Below, piece by piece: positions 52,362 to 64,000 of a stretch of DNA of 64,000 nt. Numbering within the stretch: position 1 is the first letter of the stretch; each line of letters opens with the position of its first letter. The stretch comes from an uncultured Spirochaetales bacterium (GTDB taxonomy: Bacteria > Spirochaetota > Spirochaetia > Sphaerochaetales > Sphaerochaetaceae), in NCBI GenBank assembly GCA_949285785.1, contig CASEAG010000039.1, positions 1 to 64,000 of the forward strand. Reading direction: 5' to 3'. The translations under genes and the position numbers were made by a program. The notes beneath the pieces are model-generated. The model had not been told where the DNA came from, did not search any database, and saw only the letters and a list, made by a program, of their open reading frames with translations.

Positions 52362-53348
52362 TCATCGCCTTGCAGGCGAGCCTGTATCGCGGAGTATGAG
52401 ATTGGCGGACAGTGTCATCTTCTGATGCGGCATGCTGTTGTCTCTCATCTCCTGCATCAGCAGGTACATGGCGTTCTTGCCCATTTCCCGGAGCGGCTGG
52501 CGTACCGTTGTCAGTCCGGCCTTGCCGGCCGAGGGGATGTCATCGTAGCCGATCACCGACACATCATGTGGTACGTCTATCCCGAGCTCTGCGAGAGCTC
52601 TCATGGCTCCAAGCGCCATTTCGTCGTTTGATGCACAAACCGCGGTGAAGTCGACGTTGCCCCGGTCCATGATCCTGCTACGTACAACGTGGTATGCAGT
52701 GGCGTTGCCGTAATCCGCATTCTCGAAAATAATGCCGGAGGCGTCCACATCGCTATCATGAATGGCTTGCATGAAGCCGTCATATCTCTCCTTTGTCGTC
52801 GAGGCGCCCCTTGTCCCTGCAAGGAAGAGAATCTGCCTGTGCCCAAGCGTGATCAGATACTTGGCCGCCTGATACATGCCGTCTCTGTTCTCCACCGTCA
52901 CCAGGTCGATGCCTGCAAGCCCCGGGTCGCGGTCTAGAAAGACAATCGGGACATGACGGTCCCTGACGATTCGCTCGAGATAGGGATAGACGGTTCCGCA
53001 CGAAATCAGTATCAGTCCGTCCACTCCGTGGTCGGCAAGCCGACGCACGATCTTCTCCTCCCTGGTTGCGTTGGCGTTGCTGGAACACTGCAGTATGGTC
53101 AGGTCGTTCGCATCAGCGACATCGTTTATCCCTTCATACATCATCGGGAAGAACGGATTGCGCGTATCGGGTATCACAAGGCCTATGAGGTTGGACTGTC
53201 CGCCACGGTTCTGGAGCTCACGCACCGCCTTGTCGATAATCTCCTGTGTCTCACGGCGTACAAGACCGGAGCCGGACATCGCTCTCGATATCGTGGCTAT
53301 TGAAAGGCCTGTCCTGGCCGAAATCTCCTTGAGTGTCGGTCTGTTCAT
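52362..53348 (-). CDS. LacI-family repressor of the adjacent catabolic locus
   Basis: A 328-residue regulator. The helix-turn-helix and hinge are MNRPTLKEISARTGLSIATISRAMSGSGLVRRET, followed by a periplasmic-binding-protein-like core (LIGLVIPDTRNPFFPMMYEGI, DGLILISCG, VIGYDDIPSAGKAGLTTVRQP). The effector is unknown but should be the sugar or nucleoside-like substrate of the divergent locus. The start ATG 53348 has no ribosome-binding site. TACAAT ends 7 nt upstream and TTGCCA stands 18 nt behind it, so the mRNA is probably leaderless. Confidence 0.93.
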   Translation of the reverse strand: MNRPTLKEISARTGLSIATISRAMSGSGLVRRETQEIIDKAVRELQNRGGQSNLIGLVIPDTRNPFFPMMYEGINDVADANDLTILQCSSNANATREEKIVRRLADHGVDGLILISCGTVYPYLERIVRDRHVPIVFLDRDPGLAGIDLVTVENRDGMYQAAKYLITLGHRQILFLAGTRGASTTKERYDGFMQAIHDSDVDASGIIFENADYGNATAYHVVRSRIMDRGNVDFTAVCASNDEMALGAMRALAELGIDVPHDVSVIGYDDIPSAGKAGLTTVRQPLREMGKNAMYLLMQEMRDNSMPHQKMTLSANLILRDTGSPARR

Positions 53349-53716
53349 CACTGGGATTGTAAACGTGTTGTCCGGATTATGGCAAATGGAAAAATACATG
53401 TCTTTTCATTTTTTCTGCCGTGCCTGATGACATTGTTCTTCGATATGACGACTTTTCCAATGTAATACTGAACGGCTATAAAACATATGTTTCATGCAAT
53501 CCAGACGGTGATGGGGGCAGTTGTTTCATCTTCGGAGTCATCGCATCCAGGCCATTTTACGCTTCATTCCATGAAAATGAACTGTTCCATACAAATGTGA
53601 TGATGAGAAACGTTATGAAAATATAATGAAAACAAATGTAAAAAATGATTACATTATTTTTTTGACAGTACCCTTGTTTGCCCCATATAAGGAAGACAAA
53701 GGGAGGTTGACCGGTC
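53349..53716. promoter_or_regulatory. 368-bp AT-rich control region with divergent promoters and inverted repeats
   Basis: No gene is supported here. The lacI promoter is TTGCCA (53385-53380), 18 nt, TACAAT (53361-53356) on the minus strand. The locus promoter is TTGACA (53662-53667), 18 nt, TATAAG (53686-53691). Just upstream of it AATGTAA (53635-53641) and TTACATT (53649-53655) form an inverted repeat with a 7-nt spacer. A perfect AAACATATGTTT stands at 53481-53492. TTGTAAACGT (53357-53366), overlapping the lacI -10 box, resembles a LacI-family half-site. These are candidates for repressor binding. Confidence 0.6.
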
Positions 53717-55102
53717 TTGGACTGTATCAGAATACTGTCACCATGTGGAATTCTAGGTTATGGATTCCCGACATCGTCTCTGGAAAGAGGCATGGCCATG
53801 AGGCCGGATGCCATCGTGGTCGATGCGGGGTCCACCGATGCCGGGCCTCACAAACTGGGTGCGAAGACCGCCATAGTCAGCAGGATGGCGGCCAGGAAGG
53901 ATCTTGAGCGTCTGATCGAGGCGGCAATTGGCAATGACATCCCGCTGATCGTGTCATCTGCAGGTGGCAGTGGAGGAAGGGAGCATGTCATGTGGACGCT
54001 GTCCATAATCGAGGAGATATTCCGCGAGCGCTCGTTCCCACAAGTCGACACCTGCGTAATCTGGGCGGATATCCCGGATGATGTAATCCTCAGCAGCATG
54101 GAAAGAGGAGAGGTGACTCCACTGGATGCAAAGGTCCCGCAGCTGGATGCAGTACGGCTCGAGGAGACCACAGGCGTCGTCGCACAGATGGGCGTTGAAC
54201 CAATCGTCAAAGCTCTTGAAAGCGGAGCCAGGATCATCATCGCCGGGCGTGCATACGATCCGGCACCATTCGCGGCGGTCGGCATCTTCCACGGCTTCGA
54301 TGCCGCCATTAGTTACCACATGGGCAAAGTTCTGGAGTGCGGTGCGCTGTGCTGCAATCCAGGAACCACGAAGGACTGCATGATAGGTGAGGTATATGAG
54401 GACTCATTCGTCGTGTATCCCTGCGATCCTGGCAGGCAGTGCACATCTCTGTCCGTCGCTGCGCATACGTTCTATGAAAAGGACCATCCGTACATTCTGC
54501 ATGGGCCTGGAATCGAGATGGATCTGTCGCAGTGCACATTCGAGGAGCTTGGCGACAACAGAGTCAGGGTGAAGGGTAGTCGTCTCAAGGCTACCAATCC
54601 GTACATGATTAAGCTCGAAGGTGCCCGTCTTGTGGCATACAGGACCTTCGTCATTGCAGGCGTGAGGGATCCCATCCTGATTGGAAAGGTGGCCCAGGTC
54701 GAGGATCTTGTCCGCCGTTCCGTACAGGAGCAGTACTCGGAAATCGACCCCTCCAGCTATTCGATCGACTTCTACAACTACGGCATAGACGGCGTAATGG
54801 GTCCTTTGGAGCCGCTTCATGACACGCCTCATGAAATCTGCGTGATGTTCGAGGTTCTATCATCGTCGCAGGAACTGTCCAATGCGATATGCGCATCGGT
54901 GCGTTCGACGTTCATGCACTACGGCTACGAGGGACGCAAGTCCACGGCTGGCAATCTCGCCTTTCCGTTCGCGCCGAGTGACGTGCCATTCGGCCCGGTA
55001 TACGAGTTCTCCGTATACCATCTGATGCCGGTGGACGACCCTACGGCTCTCTTTCCGATCCAGAGATGGAGCCCCTATACGGGATTCGGAGGTGCGACAT
55101 GA
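53717..55102 (+). CDS. AtuA-like (DUF1446) protein
   Basis: A 461-residue protein of the AtuA family, named after an acyclic-terpene-utilisation gene of Pseudomonas; its biochemistry is unclear. RILSPCGILGYGFP at the very start is the family's hallmark. DAIVVDAGSTDAGPHKLG, SSAGGSGGREHVMWT, IIIAGRAYDPAPFAAVG and YSIDFYNYGIDGVMG follow. The start is TTG 53717 with GGGAGG 10 nt before it (53701-53706); a later ATG would cut into the conserved front. The DUF4387 gene overlaps the stop (ATGA). Here it accompanies a sugar-type transporter and glycohydrolases, not carboxylases. Confidence 0.85.
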   Translation: MDCIRILSPCGILGYGFPTSSLERGMAMRPDAIVVDAGSTDAGPHKLGAKTAIVSRMAARKDLERLIEAAIGNDIPLIVSSAGGSGGREHVMWTLSIIEEIFRERSFPQVDTCVIWADIPDDVILSSMERGEVTPLDAKVPQLDAVRLEETTGVVAQMGVEPIVKALESGARIIIAGRAYDPAPFAAVGIFHGFDAAISYHMGKVLECGALCCNPGTTKDCMIGEVYEDSFVVYPCDPGRQCTSLSVAAHTFYEKDHPYILHGPGIEMDLSQCTFEELGDNRVRVKGSRLKATNPYMIKLEGARLVAYRTFVIAGVRDPILIGKVAQVEDLVRRSVQEQYSEIDPSSYSIDFYNYGIDGVMGPLEPLHDTPHEICVMFEVLSSSQELSNAICASVRSTFMHYGYEGRKSTAGNLAFPFAPSDVPFGPVYEFSVYHLMPVDDPTALFPIQRWSPYTGFGGAT

Positions 55103-55410
55103 CAAGACTAGTGGAGCTTGCAAAGGTGCTCAGAAGCAAGAACAGCGGACCTTTTCTAATTACTCTGGACGTCCTGTTCGACGACAGGGAGAAGTACGAG
55201 AGGGTGAGGGATAGCGGCGTGATCTGCCAGGACACCATATGTCGGATCTATAACCTTGATCCGGATGCTCTCAAGTGTATTGTGTTCTTCGATGCTGCGA
55301 TGGGCGTGAAGATCACATACGACCGCAGCACGCCATCCGGTACATGCTTCGACCGTGACGTGTATGGTGCCCAGCAGCATGCCCCGTTGATGGAATTGCT
55401 GATCCCATGA
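55099..55410 (+). CDS. DUF4387 protein, partner of the AtuA-like protein
   Basis: A 103-residue protein with LAKVLRSKNSGPFLITLDVLFDD and FFDAAMGVKITYDRSTPSGT...DVYGAQQHAPL, the DUF4387 pattern. DUF4387 is found next to or fused with AtuA-like domains, so the two probably form one enzyme or complex. GGAGG precedes the ATG, which overlaps the previous stop by 4 nt. Catalytic role unknown. Confidence 0.88.
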   Translation: MTRLVELAKVLRSKNSGPFLITLDVLFDDREKYERVRDSGVICQDTICRIYNLDPDALKCIVFFDAAMGVKITYDRSTPSGTCFDRDVYGAQQHAPLMELLIP

Positions 55411-55438
55411 TCTGCCCATGGTGGAAAAAGGAGGAAAG

Positions 55439-56389
55439 ATGAAACGGAAAGGAGACTCCACTGACATCCAGACCGGATCCGCATCACAGATACGGCGTGC
55501 CCCGCTCTGGAAGAGGGTTTGGAACGAGAAGGTGCTCTATCTGATCCTTCTGCCGACCATGCTCTACTTCATTTTCTTCAAGGTACTTCCGATCATCAAC
55601 ATGCGCCTGGCCTTCTATTCATTCAATGCCAGAGGCCCATGGAGGTTCGCTGGTCTGCACTATTTCGAGATGATCTTCAGTAGTCCGGCGTTCTTCAACA
55701 TTCTCAAGAACACTCTGATCATCAGCTTCATGAAGTACATTCTGCTGTTCCCGTTCTTCCTGATCTTCGCCATCATGCTGACGCAGGTCAGGAGCTGGGG
55801 ATTCAGGAAGTACGTGCAGGTCATATCGTATCTTCCCCACTTCCTCTCATGGGTCGTAATCGCAGGCATCTGGATCGATGCCCTCTCTATCCAGGGAGGG
55901 GTGAATGAGCTACTGGGATTCTTCGGCATCGAGGCCCATGATTTCATGACCGACCGTTCGGTGATCCGCTGGATCCTGATGATCTGCGAAGGTTGGAGAA
56001 GCATCGGCTGGGATTCAATAATATATTATACTGCAATCATCTCGATCAGTCCGTCTCTGTTTGAGGCGGCGGACATGGACGGCGCCAACACGTTCCAGAA
56101 AATCTGGCATGTGGTGCTTCCTGCTCTCATCACGCCGGCCGTGACGATGTTCATCCTGAACCTGGGCTTCTTCCTTTCCGCAGGGTTCGACCAGGTGTTG
56201 AACTTCTCCAACACCGCGGTGGAGTCGACGATCGACATTCTCGACACGTATATCTACAGGATAGGTATCCAGGGGGGACAGTATTCGCTGGCCACAGCCG
56301 TCAGCCTCATCAAGGGAGTCGTCGGCATGATTCTCGTCCTTGCGACACATCTGGTGTCCAAGCGTCTGACAGGTGAGGGGGTCTGGTGA
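55439..56389 (+). CDS. ABC sugar-transporter permease, LplB type
   Basis: A 316-residue inner-membrane permease with six segments. WNEKVLYLILLPTMLYFIFFKVLPIINMRLAF and IGWDSIIYYTAIISI are LplB-like, and the EAA loop is EAADMDGANTFQKIWHVVLP. LplB/YtcP systems import oligosaccharides and glycosides and take a shared ATPase encoded elsewhere. AAGGAGG fixes ATG 55439. The second permease starts 1 nt after its stop. Confidence 0.92.
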   Translation: MKRKGDSTDIQTGSASQIRRAPLWKRVWNEKVLYLILLPTMLYFIFFKVLPIINMRLAFYSFNARGPWRFAGLHYFEMIFSSPAFFNILKNTLIISFMKYILLFPFFLIFAIMLTQVRSWGFRKYVQVISYLPHFLSWVVIAGIWIDALSIQGGVNELLGFFGIEAHDFMTDRSVIRWILMICEGWRSIGWDSIIYYTAIISISPSLFEAADMDGANTFQKIWHVVLPALITPAVTMFILNLGFFLSAGFDQVLNFSNTAVESTIDILDTYIYRIGIQGGQYSLATAVSLIKGVVGMILVLATHLVSKRLTGEGVW

Positions 56390-56390
56390 T

Positions 56391-57284
56391 ATGCAGGTAA
56401 GAGGAAGAAGATTTTCGATAGGTCAGATTCTGCTGGTCATTCTGCTGTTCGCGCTGACGATGACGATGCTCATCCCGCTGCTCAACATCCTGGCAAAATC
56501 TCTCTCCAGCCCGACGGGGTCGATGGAGATGTCCGGTCTGGATATCATCCCGCATGATCTGGACTTCACGAACTACCGCATCGTGTTCAGCCACCCGATT
56601 CTGGTTCCGGCTCTGATCAACTCGGTGATAATCACTGTGGTCGGAACAGCAATCAACATGATATTGACGGTCACGGCGGCCTATGTGCTCACACGACCCC
56701 GTCTTGCCCTCAAGAGACCTATCATGGTCTTCCTGATCATCATGATGCTCTTCGACCCCGGAACGGTTCCCGAATACCTGGTCGTGCAGAACCTTGGCCT
56801 GATGGGAAGCAAGTTGTCTGTCATTCTGGTAACAGCTGTCAACGTATACTACCTGATCATCATGATGCGCTATTTCGAAAGTGTGCCGAAAAGCATCGTC
56901 GAGGCGGCTGAGATTGACGGGGCAGGGCACCTGAAGAGCATGACAAGCGTCTACATCCCGCTTGCCAAGAGCGGAATCGCGACGATAACCATGTTCTATG
57001 CCGTGGTCAGATGGAACGAGTATTTCAAAGCCAGCATCTACCTGACCGAGAAGTCCACCGACACCGTGCTCCAGGTCGTCCTGCGGCAGTTCGTTGTCCT
57101 CGGTGATGTCGTATCCATTCTGGGACAGCAGAACGTCTTCGACTACAACACGCTGGCACGTGTCGACTATGCGGCGCTCAAGGGAGCCACGATAGTCGTC
57201 GCAATCGTCCCGATACTGATCCTCTATCCATTTGTCCTGAAATTCTACACGAAGGATGTCATGGGTGGAGGAATAAAGGAATAG
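56391..57284 (+). CDS. ABC sugar-transporter permease, YtcP/MalG type
   Basis: A 297-residue permease. Segments include GQILLVILLFALTMTMLIPLLNILAKSLSS and ALINSVIITVVGTAINMILTVTAAYVLTR. The EAA loop is EAAEIDGAGHLKSMTSVYIPLAK, and the C-terminal PFVLKFYTKDVMGGGIKE is the usual end of YtcP-type proteins. It pairs with the LplB-type permease just upstream and the binding protein 28 nt downstream. Confidence 0.93.
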   Translation: MQVRGRRFSIGQILLVILLFALTMTMLIPLLNILAKSLSSPTGSMEMSGLDIIPHDLDFTNYRIVFSHPILVPALINSVIITVVGTAINMILTVTAAYVLTRPRLALKRPIMVFLIIMMLFDPGTVPEYLVVQNLGLMGSKLSVILVTAVNVYYLIIMMRYFESVPKSIVEAAEIDGAGHLKSMTSVYIPLAKSGIATITMFYAVVRWNEYFKASIYLTEKSTDTVLQVVLRQFVVLGDVVSILGQQNVFDYNTLARVDYAALKGATIVVAIVPILILYPFVLKFYTKDVMGGGIKE

Positions 57285-57312
57285 AGGAAAAAAGGAAAAC
57301 GGAGGTAAAAAG

Positions 57313-58830
57313 ATGAAAAGGACATTTTGCGTTCTTCTGGCGCTTCTGGTTGCGCTTTCATGCGCATTCGCCGGCGGAAGCGGCGAGAGCACGTCTGCCG
57401 ATGCAGGACAGACCGTCACCGCCGAGATGCTCTCACAGCATGTCGGAACACCTGAGGCACCTGTCCAGGTCACATACCTGTACAAGGACATTGATCCGAT
57501 TGTGGACGCCGACATCTGTGCAGTGCTCGAGAAGGAGATCGAGGAGGGATTGGCCGCTCAGGGCGACTATATCGACCTTGTATTCCTCAGCGCTCCCACC
57601 GGTTCGTATGCCACTGTCGTGCCTATTGCATTCAGGACCGGACAGATCAACCCTGACATAATCTATTTCCAGGGTGGGGACCAGGCCGTTGCCGACGAGG
57701 GACTGCTCGAGGACCTTACGCCGTATATCGAGAGCTCGACATACGTCAAGCAGATTCTCGACATGGAGCCACATGCCAAGGAGCAGATCGCCAACTATCC
57801 ATACCTGCTCTGGCTTGAACCGCCGCGCATCAAGGTTCCCGTGCTCAGACAGGACTGGTTCGATGCGATGAGCTCTTCCGAAGCCCTCATGGCCGATCCG
57901 ACACTCGAGAATTATCTGGCGTTCTTCAGGGAGCTCAAGGCTTCCGGCCTGTGCACCTGGCCCATCACGCTGGACGGTGCGACGCAGAGCGATGGATCGA
58001 TCCTGGAGCTGGACAACATGTTCAATCATGCATTCGGCATCACGTCCACGATCACTCAGGACGAGAACGGTGACTGGGTGTACTCCGTGACGACCGAGAA
58101 CGAGAAGGCCAAGCTCGCATTCTATGCTCAGCTGTACAATGAGGGGCTTCTCGACAACGGCTATGTTACCAAGACATGGGAGACCAAGGAGCAGTCGTTC
58201 TACGAAGGAGAGAGCGCCATGGTCATGGCGACCGCTGGTGATACGCTCAACGTCTACAGCACGAAAATGAAGGAGACCCAGGGACAGGATCTTGTCGTGC
58301 TTCCTCCTGCCAAGGGTGAGAGCTGGGCATACAAGAGCGTCGACGTCACCAAGGCGACAAGGGGTATCGCGATCAATGCCTACAGCGAGGTCAAGGTCGC
58401 TGCATGGAAGGTCCTCGAGTTCATGGCAAGCCCTGAGGGAAGAGTCATAGACAAACTCGGCCTTGAGGGGATCCACTACAACGTCGAGAATGGCAAGTAC
58501 GTCCTCACAGACCAGTACTCGTCCTGGTGGGCACGTTGCTGGACCACAATCGACAACCTCGACATGTCCAAGGTTGACGGTCAGGTTCTCTCCGATGCCG
58601 CTCTCGAGTCCCTTGACATGGTGCAGGAGTACTTCGCCGACGATATCAACGTCATTCTTCCGGAAGACCTCGTGCCCCTCAAGGACGCCATGGATTCCCT
58701 GTACAGGGAGTATGCGACCGACATCATCCGCGGAGTGCGCCCGGTCGACGACTTCGAGAAGTTCGTCGAGCAGTGGAACCAGGCCGGTGGAACGAAGATC
58801 ACCGAATACCTGAACTCGGTGCTCGGCTGA
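57313..58830 (+). CDS. extracellular solute-binding protein (LplA/YtcQ type)
   Basis: A 505-residue binding protein with a cleavable signal, MKRTFCVLLALLVALSCAFA, then GGSGESTSAD, a leader often seen in spirochaete binding proteins. A Cys in the signal (ALSC) could make it a lipoprotein under the loose spirochaetal lipobox, but this is uncertain. FRTGQINPDIIYFQGGDQAVADEG and LWLEPPRIKVPVLRQDWFDA are typical of the long family that binds oligosaccharides or glycosides. GGAGG precedes the ATG. A hairpin directly after the gene would let it be made in excess over the downstream genes. Confidence 0.9.
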   Translation: MKRTFCVLLALLVALSCAFAGGSGESTSADAGQTVTAEMLSQHVGTPEAPVQVTYLYKDIDPIVDADICAVLEKEIEEGLAAQGDYIDLVFLSAPTGSYATVVPIAFRTGQINPDIIYFQGGDQAVADEGLLEDLTPYIESSTYVKQILDMEPHAKEQIANYPYLLWLEPPRIKVPVLRQDWFDAMSSSEALMADPTLENYLAFFRELKASGLCTWPITLDGATQSDGSILELDNMFNHAFGITSTITQDENGDWVYSVTTENEKAKLAFYAQLYNEGLLDNGYVTKTWETKEQSFYEGESAMVMATAGDTLNVYSTKMKETQGQDLVVLPPAKGESWAYKSVDVTKATRGIAINAYSEVKVAAWKVLEFMASPEGRVIDKLGLEGIHYNVENGKYVLTDQYSSWWARCWTTIDNLDMSKVDGQVLSDAALESLDMVQEYFADDINVILPEDLVPLKDAMDSLYREYATDIIRGVRPVDDFEKFVEQWNQAGGTKITEYLNSVLG

Positions 58831-58839
58831 TGAGGTGAG

Positions 58840-58870
58840 AGCTCTTCCGGAGCCTTTCGGAAGAGCTTTC
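58840..58870 (+). terminator. attenuator-like terminator after the binding-protein gene
   Basis: AGCTCTTCCG (58840-58849) pairs perfectly with CGGAAGAGCT (58858-58867), followed by TTC. It lies inside the operon, so some transcripts should pass through it to the downstream genes. Confidence 0.7.
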
Positions 58871-58907
58871 GACGAAGGGCATGGGCACATCCCGTGTCAC
58901 TCGTCGA
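58869..58907 (+). repeat. inverted repeat TCGACGA/TCGTCGA
   Basis: TCGACGA (58869-58875) and TCGTCGA (58901-58907) form a second inverted repeat immediately after the hairpin and up to the AAAGGAG of the next gene. It may mask that ribosome-binding site or act in mRNA processing. Confidence 0.4.
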
Positions 58908-58926
58908 AAGGAGATTTCCCACTGAT

Positions 58927-61038
58927 ATGGAACCCAGACACAATGAGTATTTGGAGAGGATCTATTCAGGCTTCCTCGGTATGAACATAGGCATCAGGCT
59001 CGGTGCCCCCGTGGAGCCGACGATCTGGACAAGCGATCGCATCGAGCGCTTCTATGGCGACATCACGGACTATGTGAAGCCGTTCAGGAACTTCGCCGCG
59101 GATGATGATGCCAACGGTCCCGTCTTCTTCCTTCGCGCTCTCGATGACGGTGCGATGGACAGGCCGTTGGAGCCGGGAGACGTCGCCGAGGCTTGGCTGA
59201 ACTATGCCAGGGAGGGCATCGGAATGTTCTGGTGGGGGGGATATGGCGTAAGCACAGAGCATACAGCATACCTGAATCTGAAGAACGGCATCAAAGCTCC
59301 GGCATCCGGATCCGTCAAGGTCAACGGCAGGATCATGGCGGAGCAGATCGGTGGTCAGATCTTCATAGACACCTGGGGGCTAGTCTGTCCAGGAGACCCT
59401 GCCCGGGCTGCACGCTACGCCCGGATTGCGGCAAGCGTATCCCATGACGGAAACGCCCTGGAGGGCGCGGCGTTCATCGCCGCCTGCATCGCCGAGGCAT
59501 TCTGTACAGATGACGTCGATAGCATCATCGAGAAGGGACTTTCGTTGATCGATCCGGAATGTGACTACGCCAAGGTCGTCAACGCCGTGATCGGATTCCA
59601 TTCCAGTAACCCCGGTTCCTGGAGGAAATGTCTGAAGTTCCTGCAGGATGAATGGGGATATGACAAATGGCCGGGCGCCTGCCATATCATCCCGAACGCA
59701 GGCGTGTGCATCATGGCAATGCTCTATGGACGCACATTCTCCAGGACGGTGGAGATCGCCACGATGGCCGGATGGGATACCGACTGCAATGCAGGAAACG
59801 TCGGTACGATCATGGGCGTTGCCAATGGTCTTGAAGATATTCCTGATCACTACAGGAAGCCGGTCAACGATGCAATCGTACTCTCCGGCATATCCGGCTA
59901 CCTGAACATCCTGGACATTCCGACATACGCAAGGAAGCTGGCAGAGACCGCTCTCAGACTGAAGGGGGAGCCCGTCCCAGAGGAACTGACCGTCGACGAG
60001 AAGGTCGTCGACTTCGACTTCTCCCTTCCCGGATCAACGCATTGCATGCGCGTCTCGAACGAGTTTCTGTGCCGCATAAGGCATGTCGATGGACAAGGTA
60101 CTGATGGCAAGGGCGCACTCGAGGTCCTCTTCGACCGTGGTACGAGGGGTGATGTGTCCCGCATCTACTACAAGCCGTTCTACCGTAGAGCGGACTTTGA
60201 CGATGAACGCTATCAGCCGGTGTTCTCTCCAAGGGTATATCCTGGCCAGCATGTCAGCATGAAGGTGCGTTTCGATCGGTTGAACGGTGAGAGTGTGATT
60301 CTCTCTCCCTACGTGAGGAATACGCTCACAGGGGAGCTTGTGTTCCTTGGTGGCGAGGTGTACCGTGACGACAAATGGCATGAGATCGAGTTCGACATTC
60401 CATCTGATGACGATAGGATTTCCGGTGCCATGATCGACGAGGTTGGACTTCAGTTCGAGGCGAATTCTCCGGCTAAGACGAAGGACCTTGGCTGTTTCTA
60501 TATCGATTACCTTCGCATCACGGGAAAGGGCAGATACACAATCGATGTCTCACGGCAGAAGAAGGAGTTTTCATCGATAATCCCGTTCAGCCACAACCAC
60601 GGTTCCTGGGAGATCAGGGACTCTAGAATACAGGCCATGTGCCTGGACCACTGCGAGGCGATGACCGGCAACTACTTCATGAGCGACGTCGAGGTCCATG
60701 GCAGCATCATGGTCCACAACGGAGGCGGCGCATTCATGTCCGTGCGAGTGCAGGGTGCCAGGCGCGGCTACTACGCCGGACTGGTTGCCGACGGGATCGC
60801 AATCATGAAGAACTGCGGCGACAGAGGACTCGTTACGCTTGCACACCTTCCTTTCGACTGGCGGGAGGAGACGGAGTACGACATCATGTTCAGGGCTGTC
60901 GGGGACAGTCTGAGCGCCAGTGTTGGCGGCCGGCTGATCGAGGCTGTCGATCCGGAGTATGGATACGGCATGGTGGGATACGCCATGTACAATGGAGGAC
61001 GATGTGCATTCGGCGATCTTGGCGTCGAGGAGCTTTGA
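58927..61038 (+). CDS. ADP-ribosylglycohydrolase-family protein with C-terminal beta-sandwich domain
   Basis: A 703-residue protein. Residues 1-350 are an ADP-ribosylglycohydrolase (ARH/DraG) fold of the variant kind. The usual GDxxG start is GFLGMNIGIRLGAPVEP, FAADDDANGPVFFLRAL holds the acidic cluster, and MAGWDTDCNAGNVGTIMG is the second metal block. Residues about 370-703 look like one or two jelly-roll domains, as in carbohydrate-binding proteins (HDWHEIEFDIP-like strands, SVRVQGARRGYYAGLVADG). AAAGGAG lies 13 nt before ATG 58927. No signal peptide, so it acts in the cytoplasm on what the transporter brings in. The substrate is probably a glycoside rather than a modified protein; that is inference. 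Confidence 0.8.
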   Translation: MEPRHNEYLERIYSGFLGMNIGIRLGAPVEPTIWTSDRIERFYGDITDYVKPFRNFAADDDANGPVFFLRALDDGAMDRPLEPGDVAEAWLNYAREGIGMFWWGGYGVSTEHTAYLNLKNGIKAPASGSVKVNGRIMAEQIGGQIFIDTWGLVCPGDPARAARYARIAASVSHDGNALEGAAFIAACIAEAFCTDDVDSIIEKGLSLIDPECDYAKVVNAVIGFHSSNPGSWRKCLKFLQDEWGYDKWPGACHIIPNAGVCIMAMLYGRTFSRTVEIATMAGWDTDCNAGNVGTIMGVANGLEDIPDHYRKPVNDAIVLSGISGYLNILDIPTYARKLAETALRLKGEPVPEELTVDEKVVDFDFSLPGSTHCMRVSNEFLCRIRHVDGQGTDGKGALEVLFDRGTRGDVSRIYYKPFYRRADFDDERYQPVFSPRVYPGQHVSMKVRFDRLNGESVILSPYVRNTLTGELVFLGGEVYRDDKWHEIEFDIPSDDDRISGAMIDEVGLQFEANSPAKTKDLGCFYIDYLRITGKGRYTIDVSRQKKEFSSIIPFSHNHGSWEIRDSRIQAMCLDHCEAMTGNYFMSDVEVHGSIMVHNGGGAFMSVRVQGARRGYYAGLVADGIAIMKNCGDRGLVTLAHLPFDWREETEYDIMFRAVGDSLSASVGGRLIEAVDPEYGYGMVGYAMYNGGRCAFGDLGVEEL

Positions 61039-61053
61039 CGAGTGGAGGATATG

Positions 61054-62031
61054 ATGAAAAGCATTGCACAGATGAACAGGAACGAGATCGAGAAGAGGGC
61101 GGTAGGCTGCATGGTCGGCCTTGCGATAGGCGATTCCTTCGGTGATGCCGCAAGGATGCAGGACAACAGGTCAAATTATCAGATCACGACGGATTTCAAC
61201 AGCGGGGCATCATGGAGTACCGATGATACCGAGTTTGCTCTTCTCACGGCGAAGACCCTGATCAGATGCAAGGGTAGGCTGACCAGCGATGAGGTCGTGG
61301 CATCCTGGATGGAGGACGTCGTCGTGCAGGACGAGTACAAGAGGGGCGGGGCCAGCGAGAAGGCAGCTGCAGACAACCTCAGGAGGGGACTCCTCCCACC
61401 TCTTACTGGCAAGTTCAGCACGTTCAACATGAGCGATGGTACCGCTATGAGAATACCACCTGTGGGAATCGTGTGCGCAGGGCGCCCTGAAGACGCTGTC
61501 AGAATGGCCGAGACCGAGGCCTCGATCAGCCATTACGGTGAAGGCGTCTGGGGCGCACAGGCGGTTGCGGCAGCGGTTTCGGTCGCGATGGTGGATGGAA
61601 GCTGGCAGGAGATACTCGACGCGGCACTTGCCCCTATTCCTGAGGACAGCTGGCTGTACTACAACATGACACAGTCGCTTCGTCTGGTCGAAGAGGCACA
61701 TGGCGATCTGCTCGAGTGGTGGATGCCGGTGCACGACCTTCTTCGCTCAAGCCAGTGGGCTACCACCGCAGAGGCTGTACCTTCGGCATTCTGCGCTCTC
61801 GCACAGTGTCATGACGACTTCCGCTCCGGCGTTGTGCTGGCTGGAAACTTCGGCCGTGATGCCGATACCATTGGAGCCGTAGCAGGTGCCATCCTTGGTG
61901 CAAAGTACGGAATCGATGCGATTCCCGAGCGATGGATGCAGAAGGTGAGGTATCCCTCCGGAACATGTCTGCAATTCACCAGGGGAATCGATATAGTCGA
62001 CATTGGAAAGCAGCTGGCACAGCTAGTATAA
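61054..62031 (+). CDS. ADP-ribosylglycohydrolase-family protein, canonical motifs
   Basis: A 325-residue single-domain ARH/DraG family protein. It keeps the usual metal-binding set: GLAIGDSFGDAARMQ, WSTDDTEFALLTAKTLI (STDDT) and GNFGRDADTIGAVAGAILG (RDADT). Family enzymes cut N- or O-glycosidic bonds to ADP-ribose; bacterial operon-borne members often have other, unknown ribosyl substrates. GGAGG (61044-61048) is 5 nt before ATG 61054 (ATG 61051 is the alternative). It has little resemblance to its neighbour at 58927 beyond the fold, so the two probably act on different bonds or anomers. Confidence 0.88.
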   Translation: MKSIAQMNRNEIEKRAVGCMVGLAIGDSFGDAARMQDNRSNYQITTDFNSGASWSTDDTEFALLTAKTLIRCKGRLTSDEVVASWMEDVVVQDEYKRGGASEKAAADNLRRGLLPPLTGKFSTFNMSDGTAMRIPPVGIVCAGRPEDAVRMAETEASISHYGEGVWGAQAVAAAVSVAMVDGSWQEILDAALAPIPEDSWLYYNMTQSLRLVEEAHGDLLEWWMPVHDLLRSSQWATTAEAVPSAFCALAQCHDDFRSGVVLAGNFGRDADTIGAVAGAILGAKYGIDAIPERWMQKVRYPSGTCLQFTRGIDIVDIGKQLAQLV

Positions 62032-62043
62032 GGGAGGCTTGGC

Positions 62044-62931
62044 ATGTCAAAGGTGCTCTGTTTCGGATCTCTCAACATCGACCACGTCTACCGTGTTCCT
62101 CACATGGTCATGGAGGGCGAGACGCTTTCGTGCACTTCGCTCAGGACAAGCGCCGGAGGCAAGGGTGCGAACCAGAGCGCCGCCATGGCCCGTGCAGGTC
62201 TGGAGGTCTATCATGCCGGCAGGATAGGGACGGACGGCATGTTCCTGGTCGATCTGCTGGACGGCTATGGAGTCGACACCCGTTACATCGACACCACCTC
62301 CAGTGCGACCGGGAACGCCATCATACAGGTCGACGATGAGGGACGCAACTGCATAATGATCTATCCCGGAGGCAACAGGGAGATCACGAAGGAAATGGTC
62401 GACGCGGTGCTTTCCGATTTCTCGCAGGGCGACTGGCTGGTGCTCCAGAACGAGATCAACCTCGTCGACTATCTGATCACGTGCGCCAGCAGGTGCGGCA
62501 TGAGGATATGCCTCAATCCTGCGCCTTATGTGGATGAGGTGAAGAGCTTCCATCTCGACCTGGTGGACATCATATGCGTCAACGAGATCGAGGGCGCGGC
62601 GCTTGCCGGACTTCCTCTGAATGCCGGCTACGAGACGATACTCGAGACTCTGGTGGAGGCCCATCCGCACCCGCAGATACTCCTGACCGCAGGAAGCCAT
62701 GGGGCATATTACGGCTACCGCGACAGACGCGGGCGTGGATACATCGTGGACCTTCCCGTCAAGGACACGACCGCTGCCGGCGATACGTTCATCGGCTACT
62801 ATATCGCCTCGATAGAGCGTGGATACGATGTGGACGAAGCCCTTGCATATGCCTGCCGCGCCTCGTCGATCGCCGTGTCCAGAGAGGGGGCCATGCAGTC
62901 GATCCCCGCGGCGTCGGAGGTGTTCACATGA
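62044..62931 (+). CDS. rbsK: PfkB-family ribokinase
   Basis: Phosphorylates ribose (or a related sugar) to the 5-phosphate. A 295-residue protein with the two PfkB signatures: GGKGANQSAAMARAG near the front and DTTAAGDTFIGYYIAS, with the catalytic Asp, near the end. CFGSLNIDHVYRVPHMVMEGETLS is typical for ribokinase. It is the last gene of the run. It fits a pathway in which the glycohydrolases free ribose in the cytoplasm. Fructose or 2-deoxyribose cannot be excluded. Confidence 0.88.
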   Translation: MSKVLCFGSLNIDHVYRVPHMVMEGETLSCTSLRTSAGGKGANQSAAMARAGLEVYHAGRIGTDGMFLVDLLDGYGVDTRYIDTTSSATGNAIIQVDDEGRNCIMIYPGGNREITKEMVDAVLSDFSQGDWLVLQNEINLVDYLITCASRCGMRICLNPAPYVDEVKSFHLDLVDIICVNEIEGAALAGLPLNAGYETILETLVEAHPHPQILLTAGSHGAYYGYRDRRGRGYIVDLPVKDTTAAGDTFIGYYIASIERGYDVDEALAYACRASSIAVSREGAMQSIPAASEVFT

Positions 62932-63030: not shown

Positions 63031-63059
63031 TTGAACAAATCACCGAAGGCGAATAACAT
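63031..63059 (+). promoter_or_regulatory. promoter of prs
   Basis: TTGAAC (63031-63036), a 17-nt spacer and TAACAT (63054-63059). The ATG follows 7 nt later and has no ribosome-binding site, so the transcript should be leaderless. This separates prs from the upstream operon. Confidence 0.5.
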
Positions 63060-63066
63060 TCTTCAC

Positions 63067-64000
63067 ATGAGCATCATCAAACCGCACAAGCTGGGGGTTA
63101 TTGCCGGCCCTGGCAGCGAGTATTTCACAGGCAAGGTCGTCAAGCACTTGAGAAGACTTTACATAGACCGCTATGAGAAGGTCTCCAAGGCACTCTCCAA
63201 GAGACACGAGATGACAGAGGCCGAGCTGCTGAAGCAGGTCACGCTCATCGATGATCTGGACAGCAAGAAGATCCCCACTGGCAAGCTGCCCAGCGCCTTC
63301 TACTGCCCGGACTTCACGATCAACGTGAAGTATACCCGCTTCGCCAACGGCGAGGAGAAGGCCGAGCTCATCGATCCGGTGCGAGGACTCAACGTATACA
63401 TCATCCACGACGTGTCCAACAGCGCTCCAATCAAGGTTGCAGGTCTCGATGAACCGCAGCCGATATCCATCAACGACCACCTGATGTTCCTGTTCACCAC
63501 GATCGACGCCGTCAAGCTCGCCGGCGCCGCCTCCATAACGCTGGTCCTTCCCACCTATCCGTATGCAAGACAGCACAAGAAGGCCGGACGCGAGGCGCTG
63601 ACCGCCAGCATGTTCGCCCGCTTCTGCGAGGGACTGGGCGTCGAGAGGATCATCACGCTCGACATACACTCGCGCGAGATCGAGAACGCGTTCTCCACAT
63701 GCCATCTGGAGAACCTCCACGGCTCCTACCAGACCCTGATCGCGCTCAGGAAGGTCATCGACCTGTCCGATCCGGACCTGGTCGTCGTGTCCCCGGACAC
63801 CGGCGCCGTCAGCCGCAACAAGTTCTACGCCCAGGGACTGCACAGGCCGCTGGCCATGCTCTACAAGGAGAGGGACTACTCAATCGTCAGCAAGGATGCC
63901 AAGAACAGCAACATCAAGAGCATCAACCTGCTTGGCGACGTCCGTGGCAAGACCGTCCTGATGGCCGACGACATGATAGCCACCGGAGGCACGATGATCA
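63067..64000 (+). CDS. prs: ribose-phosphate pyrophosphokinase (3' end outside window)
   Basis: Makes PRPP from ribose-5-phosphate and ATP. The visible 311 residues start MSIIKPHKLGVIAGPG. RFANGEEKAEL, VLPTYPYARQHKK (the PYxYARQ block), ITLDIHSREIENAF, VVSPDTGAV and VLMADDMIATGGTM (PRPP-binding loop) follow. About 45 extra residues (VVKHLRRLYIDRYEKVSKAL...) are inserted between the first strand and FANGE compared with the short bacterial enzyme; such a longer form occurs in some spirochaetes and related lineages. The gene runs off the window end. Confidence 0.92.
   Translation, partial: MSIIKPHKLGVIAGPGSEYFTGKVVKHLRRLYIDRYEKVSKALSKRHEMTEAELLKQVTLIDDLDSKKIPTGKLPSAFYCPDFTINVKYTRFANGEEKAELIDPVRGLNVYIIHDVSNSAPIKVAGLDEPQPISINDHLMFLFTTIDAVKLAGAASITLVLPTYPYARQHKKAGREALTASMFARFCEGLGVERIITLDIHSREIENAFSTCHLENLHGSYQTLIALRKVIDLSDPDLVVVSPDTGAVSRNKFYAQGLHRPLAMLYKERDYSIVSKDAKNSNIKSINLLGDVRGKTVLMADDMIATGGTMI

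Follow-up and report, generated by a model that had tools for sequence, protein, structure and literature searches.

An eight-gene operon with ADP-ribosylglycohydrolase-fold proteins is predicted to degrade a pentofuranosyl conjugate of a citrate- or citramalate-like acid

Which compound is taken up and degraded by the eight-gene operon at positions 53717-62931 of contig CASEAG010000039.1, from an uncultured Spirochaetales bacterium? The window, which is the whole 64,000-nucleotide stretch of this contig that was analysed, encodes there on its + strand an AtuA-family and a DUF4387 protein, a transporter, two ADP-ribosylglycohydrolase (ARH)-fold proteins (ARH1 and ARH2) and a ribokinase, and a Pfam/NCBIfam search of the window proteins confirmed the named families. 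An earlier sequence-only reading had described the genes as a one-direction block for a single uptake-and-hydrolysis pathway. Both parts of that description hold, since all eight genes are on the + strand with short or negative gaps and the single pathway is supported. The locus would be a sugar-conjugate utilisation operon with a new substrate class. With a probability of about 60%, the operon imports and degrades a pentofuranosyl (likely ribosyl) conjugate of a 2-hydroxy-2-R-succinate, the simplest being citrate or citramalate. The gene content, the homology, the conservation and the replacement of the lyase by other citrate- or citramalate-type lyases are direct observations. The eight genes are:

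53717-55102, + strand: AtuA-family protein with a TTG start, CmlA homologue (PF07287, E 4e-25; PDB 9erq chain A, E 4e-128, residues 4-444)
55099-55410 (first listed open reading frame start 55066), + strand: DUF4387 protein, CmlB homologue (PF14330, E 1e-35; PDB 9erq chain B, E 2.5e-25)
55418-56389, + strand: LplB-type ATP-binding cassette (ABC) permease (PF00528; orthologues 47-99% identical in related loci)
56373-57284, + strand: YtcP-type ABC permease (PF00528)
57313-58830, + strand: solute-binding protein (SBP_bac_1, PF01547), nearest solved relatives AlgQ1/AlgQ2 (PDB 1y3n, E 3e-9)
58894-61038, + strand: ARH1, 714 amino acids, ARH fold with a beta-sandwich resembling a carbohydrate-binding module (CBM) and a CBM66-like domain (PF03747, E 2e-51)
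61042-62031, + strand: ARH2, 329 amino acids, single-domain ARH fold with TDDT and DADT motifs (PF03747, E 9e-56)
62044-62931, + strand: ribokinase of the PfkB family (PF00294, E 3e-43; TIGR02152, 223.5 bits)

The AtuA and DUF4387 proteins match over their full length PDB entries 9erq and 9evf, which were deposited under the name citramalate lyase (subunits A and B; CmlAB). A publication on CmlAB was not found, and its identity is that of the PDB titles. In other Spirochaetes the pair follows genes for GntR, the B12-binding glutamate mutase subunit, MutL, glutamate mutase E and methylaspartate ammonia-lyase. The glutamate mutase/methylaspartase pathway yields citramalate. This context belongs to 44-47% identical relatives and not to the clade of the window AtuA. 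A 2015 paper noted that DUF1446, the old name of AtuA, adjoins methylaspartate-pathway genes in Escherichia coli O157:H7, without settling what becomes of citramalate (PMC4682846). Because of the CmlAB match, the methylaspartate-pathway context and this report, enzymes of the AtuA/DUF4387 family very likely split a 2-hydroxy-2-substituted succinate at the C2-C3 bond. The homology to CmlA and CmlB and the replacement of the pair by unrelated enzymes that cleave citrate or citramalate suggest that the pair in this locus most likely breaks a C-C bond of the acid part in a retro-aldol-type reaction. The sequence-only reading had assigned the pair no established reaction, which is out of date given 9erq and 9evf, and had it act on the aglycone or an oxidised or dehydrated intermediate; C-C cleavage of the acid part is likelier on the same two lines of evidence. 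Three other Spirochaete loci (L049, L050 and L051) are methylaspartate-pathway operons with CmlAB directly after methylaspartate ammonia-lyase, and mesaconase was not seen beside them.

The replacement was seen in related loci found by a search with ARH1 rather than AtuA, in which lyase identity was assigned by Pfam/NCBIfam on representatives and by BLAST for the rest. These loci contain the same ARH1 and LplB/YtcP/binding-protein set and lack AtuA/DUF4387; the exception is L059, which has only distant permeases. CitE and CitF are found in place of the pair in L055, L056, L178, L179 and L059, and the CitF of L055 and L056 matches PF04223 with E about 1e-130 or better. Two Paenibacillaceae loci (L162 and L163) have a CitE-like lyase and a 706-amino-acid ADP-forming coenzyme A (CoA) ligase beside LacI, a ribokinase and a third ARH type, and this combination nests among Paenibacillus CmlAB loci. 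The third replacement, an ADP-forming CoA ligase with a citryl-CoA lyase of the citrate-synthase fold, is found in L054, L180, L181 and L182. One of the four lyase systems is present in 45/46 of the close-clade loci picked with ARH1, with lyase identity resting partly on BLAST; the estimate of chance made for this count assumed a background set generously on purpose. The ARH1 tree has one supported clade of 42 rows, 41 of them with a lyase, in which the lyase types are intermixed. The replacement systems are unrelated to CmlAB, and the known families to which they belong all handle citrate- or citramalate-type acids. Since four unrelated lyase systems swap in the same gene setting, the pathway would, on the most direct reading, release citrate, citramalate or a closely similar acid. 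ARH1 loci that are more distant and contain a sulfatase (L058, L165, L167, L168 and L172) were set apart as a different substrate group. They have no citrate-type lyase, some have a ribokinase, and they probably act on sulfated ribosides.

The gene set is also conserved together. A scan of 84,980 species for the AtuA clade resulted in 80 loci in Spirochaetes, Clostridia, Paenibacillaceae and Bacillaceae. These loci were fetched with AtuA and the CmlAB count among them is therefore biased; the 45/46 figure comes from the ARH1-found loci only. Among the 63 AtuA-fetched loci with good flanks, ARH1 is found in 60, the transporter in 61 and a ribokinase in 44, and DUF4387 was detected in 58. In one family that contains Paenibacillus (104 genomes), this AtuA type occurs in 24 genomes and the ARH1 orthologue in 26, so that all 24 AtuA genomes have ARH1 and two have ARH1 only. 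The association has a Fisher p of about 1e-21, a value that ignores genome relatedness and overstates independence. Conserved co-occurrence, which the sequence-only reading had named as a check, was thus found. In one of the 24 genomes (G182) both genes are in broken pieces. The gene order of the block differs by lineage and the gene set is constant. In the window and in the sister genome G011 the block includes the ribokinase; the blocks of other near Spirochaetes lack it. A divergent copy (L176, 8423-18120; AtuA 38%, DUF4387 41%) has the same partners ARH1, ARH2 and LplB/YtcP.

The identity of the sugar is suggested by the kinase. The window kinase scores below the NCBIfam equivalog cut-off of TIGR02152 (223.5 vs 299.65 bits) but has the ribose-binding residues N14, D16, G42, K43, N46, E143 and D255 of E. 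coli RbsK. Every full-length associated kinase has N14, D16, K43, N46, E143 and D255. The complete set is not found in YegV, PsuK, KdgK or FruK, of which FruK misses E143 alone, and identity as YegV or as a 2-keto-3-deoxygluconate, pseudouridine or fructose-1-phosphate kinase was rejected on these residues. A LacI-ribokinase fusion of ~650 amino acids is located upstream of AtuA in L094 (8018-9970), and such fusions also occur, by length and kinase match, in L093, L098, L110, L111, L112, L118 and L125; the fusion is possibly a sugar-sensing repressor. Since the kinases retain the ribose-binding residues and some loci have LacI-ribokinase fusions, ribose is likely the sugar in most loci, and the kinase residues support the ribosyl sugar proposed earlier. 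A phosphoribosyl pyrophosphate (PRPP)-synthetase-like gene of the PRK06827 type (63031-64000) begins 99 nucleotides past the ribokinase, and is also found in G011. Its product would consume ribose-5-phosphate, and none was seen adjoining the other loci.

The ARH-fold proteins would release this sugar. The AlphaFold2 model of ARH1 (pLDDT, the predicted local distance difference test, 91) has three domains. A phmmer search of full-length ARH1 against the PDB gave no match, and the domains were placed by structure comparison (VIA-align) only. The catalytic domain aligns with MJ1187 (Z 22.9) and ARH3 (Z about 22), and the CBM-like beta-sandwich has a Z of about 14.6. The CBM66-like domain is a whole-domain fold match (Z 17.6; root-mean-square deviation 1.7 over 152 residues; template modelling (TM) score 0.82 of the target). 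CBM66 binds terminal fructofuranose. The metal motifs of ARH1, ADDD and DTDC (DTDCN), are conserved in 74/74 orthologues and the four di-metal Asp are present, while ARH2 has the full motifs STDDTE and DADT in 37/37 orthologues. The start of ARH1 is likely the Met near 58927. Complete blocks encode two or more ARH-fold proteins that are not orthologous to each other: ARH1 together with ARH2, a third type of ~386 amino acids, or both. The ~386-amino-acid open reading frame of Paenibacillus loci was considered as a new enzyme class, which was rejected when it turned out to be this third ARH-fold protein. ARH3 cleaves the O-linked alpha-ribofuranoside of serine, which is chemically near a ribofuranoside of a hydroxy acid. 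The earlier placement of ARH proteins in a catabolic setting is supported. In one locus (L076, 4718-5617) a metallo-beta-lactamase-fold protein (PF12706), resembling PhnP-type phosphodiesterases by eye, is flanked by two ARH genes.

The nearest solved relatives of the solute-binding protein, AlgQ1 and AlgQ2, bind acidic (alginate) oligosaccharides. The operon lacks an ATPase gene; a single MalK-type ATPase is encoded in the genome.

The intergenic gaps are, in gene order, -37, 7, -17, 28, 63, 3 and 12 nucleotides. The first value holds for the listed DUF4387 start; with the ATG at 55099 as start codon it becomes -4, an ATGA overlap. The short spacing suggests that the eight genes are co-transcribed. 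The promoter and LacI-type repressor of the sequence-only reading are both present, the latter as a divergent gene:

53662-53691, + strand: promoter read from the sequence, TTGACA (53662-53667), 18 nucleotides, TATAAG (53686-53691)
52362-53399, - strand: divergent LacI-family regulator (PF13377, E 2e-33; PF00356, E 5e-7; best NCBIfam match RbsR-type, below cut-off)

The start of the regulator is likely the MNRPTLKEISARTG Met at about 53348. A GGGAGG ribosome-binding site is seen upstream of the TTG start at 53717. The promoter hexamers and the ribosome-binding site are retained in G011 and the remaining intergenic DNA has diverged. An upstream palindrome, AATGTAA-N7-TTACATT, was dropped as a LacI operator because it is not strictly kept in the G011 copy.

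In the proposed pathway, the conjugate would be imported by the binding protein and the LplB/YtcP permeases, energised by a shared MalK/MsmX-type ATPase. In the cytoplasm, both ARH-fold hydrolases would cut the bond at the anomeric carbon of ribose, with the CBM66-like domain of ARH1 gripping the furanose. The ribokinase would produce ribose-5-phosphate, and the CmlAB-type AtuA/DUF4387 would cut the acid at C2-C3 to a 2-oxoacid and acetate. The 2-oxoacid would be pyruvate from citramalate and oxaloacetate from citrate. The LacI regulator may sense the substrate or ribose. Each catalytic step is our inference, as are the type of linkage, the anomer and the precise identity of the acid.

Several observations weigh against this proposal. 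Some loci have no ribokinase in the block, and the CitE/CitF locus L059 (13395-17253) has ARH1 and ARH2 beside L-arabinose genes instead of a ribokinase (an FGGY kinase, an L-arabinose isomerase and a class II aldolase-type epimerase). Because of these genes, L059 may be an arabinose version of the locus and the pentose may vary among loci. The ARH1-selected locus L057 has no lyase. A natural ribosyl-citrate or ribosyl-citramalate was not found in the literature searched, which left most subscription papers outside. ARH1 is without two canonical ARH threonines (ADDD/DTDC, not TDDT/DxDT), and a single bond leaves two to three different ARH-fold proteins per locus unexplained; a pair of ARHs may be needed if there are two bonds or two anomers to act on, or if the substrate is larger. 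The name citramalate lyase for 9erq is the depositor's. The AtuA proteins of the loci also show consistent differences from five CmlA-type proteins, the sharpest at C10, A42, K46, I53, V54, F252 and H257, positions that are fixed in 79/79 (A42 in 76/79) and near-invariant or invariant in both groups. Therefore, the acid may be one other than citramalate. Two of these changes, K46 for Y and H257 for D (79/79 vs 5/5), are within conserved motifs, and the more positive pocket they suggest is a hint that citrate, with its third carboxylate, would fit.

The same two residues, which point to one more negative charge on the substrate, could also indicate that AtuA/DUF4387 act not on the aglycone but on a sugar-derived acid, phosphorylated or otherwise, that is formed later in the pathway. 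However, the additional carboxylate of citrate accounts equally for the change, and CitF, CitE and citryl-CoA lyase are, to our knowledge of these families, not known for sugar phosphates, so a sugar-derived acid is very improbable. The number of ARH-fold proteins in complete blocks would suit a larger imported compound, such as an esterified or oligomeric glycoside in which ribose and acid are not directly joined. ARH1 and ARH2 would then cut different bonds, and the acid would be freed by ester cleavage or one step later. Esterases in or beside some loci (L090, 17243-18007, PF00756; L079, 10812-12515, AXE1-like) hint at ester bonds, and anions the size of oligosaccharides would fit this type of transporter with its AlgQ-like binding protein. 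Most loci, however, have no esterase or extra enzyme, the core being transporter, ARHs, kinase and lyase, and a larger compound seems unlikely. The ARH fold and the ribokinase could instead indicate that ribose is freed from N-ribosides or ADP-ribose, with AtuA/DUF4387 handling an unrelated aglycone, and E. coli yegTUV encodes an ARH protein alongside a PfkB kinase, together with a transporter of the nucleoside type (PMC10819704). This nucleoside-like breakdown is quite improbable: the locus has no nucleoside transporter or base-processing genes, the partner conserved with it is a lyase of the citrate/citramalate type, of which four unrelated forms occur, YegV is without the ribose-binding residues of the locus kinases, and ARH1 has carbohydrate-binding-like domains.

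Degradation of a pentofuranosyl conjugate of a citrate- or citramalate-like acid remains the preferred reading. The chances are roughly even that the loci represent a widespread undescribed pathway for citrate/citramalate pentofuranosides, with ARH-fold glycosidases and the acid passed to one of four unrelated lyase systems. If so, pentoside conjugates of citrate or citramalate would be a common unrecognised nutrient in soil and gut. Bacterial ARH-fold proteins are common and mostly annotated by likeness to enzymes reversing protein ADP-ribosylation; the locus gives one large ARH clade a testable catabolic role and a predicted substrate class. The swap of four unrelated citrate-type lyases in one setting narrows the acid far beyond any single annotation. 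For AtuA/DUF4387, named from terpene degradation, a second function as a lyase that works without CoA becomes likely. No paper describing the gene set or operon was found in the same literature, in line with the earlier statement that no such pathway is described.

Several known systems resemble parts of the operon. LplB/YtcP/AlgQ-type oligosaccharide ABC importers share the permease and binding-protein type and have no ATPase of their own. AlgQ takes alginate oligosaccharides, as known for the family, whereas the ligand here is only predicted. The ARH/DraG family (ARH3, DraG, MJ1187) shares the fold (Z 21-23, ~300 residues) and the four di-metal Asp, but the ARH-fold proteins here are in a catabolic operon with no ADP-ribosylation partner gene, and ARH1 has ADDD/DTDC and two added carbohydrate-binding-like domains. 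In the Bacteroides thetaiotaomicron rus locus, ribokinases adjoin an ARH-type gene in ribose scavenging. We know of no citrate-type lyase in that locus, which differs in its TonB/SusD uptake and nucleoside hydrolase. The BT2804 gene group of the same species contains a ribokinase and a nucleoside hydrolase (PMC10434189). The nearest described ARH/PfkB pairing is E. coli yegTUV (repressor GgaR/YegW), in which an ARH-fold protein adjoins a PfkB-family sugar kinase and a transporter and whose function is unsettled (PMC10819704). It differs in a nucleoside-symporter-type transporter, a kinase without the ribose-binding residues of ribokinase and the lack of a lyase. CmlAB of the methylaspartate pathway of glutamate fermentation shares two full-length homologous subunits, the A-B order and most conserved motif residues, but its operon has glutamate mutase and methylaspartase where the operon described here has a transporter, ARH proteins and a ribokinase.

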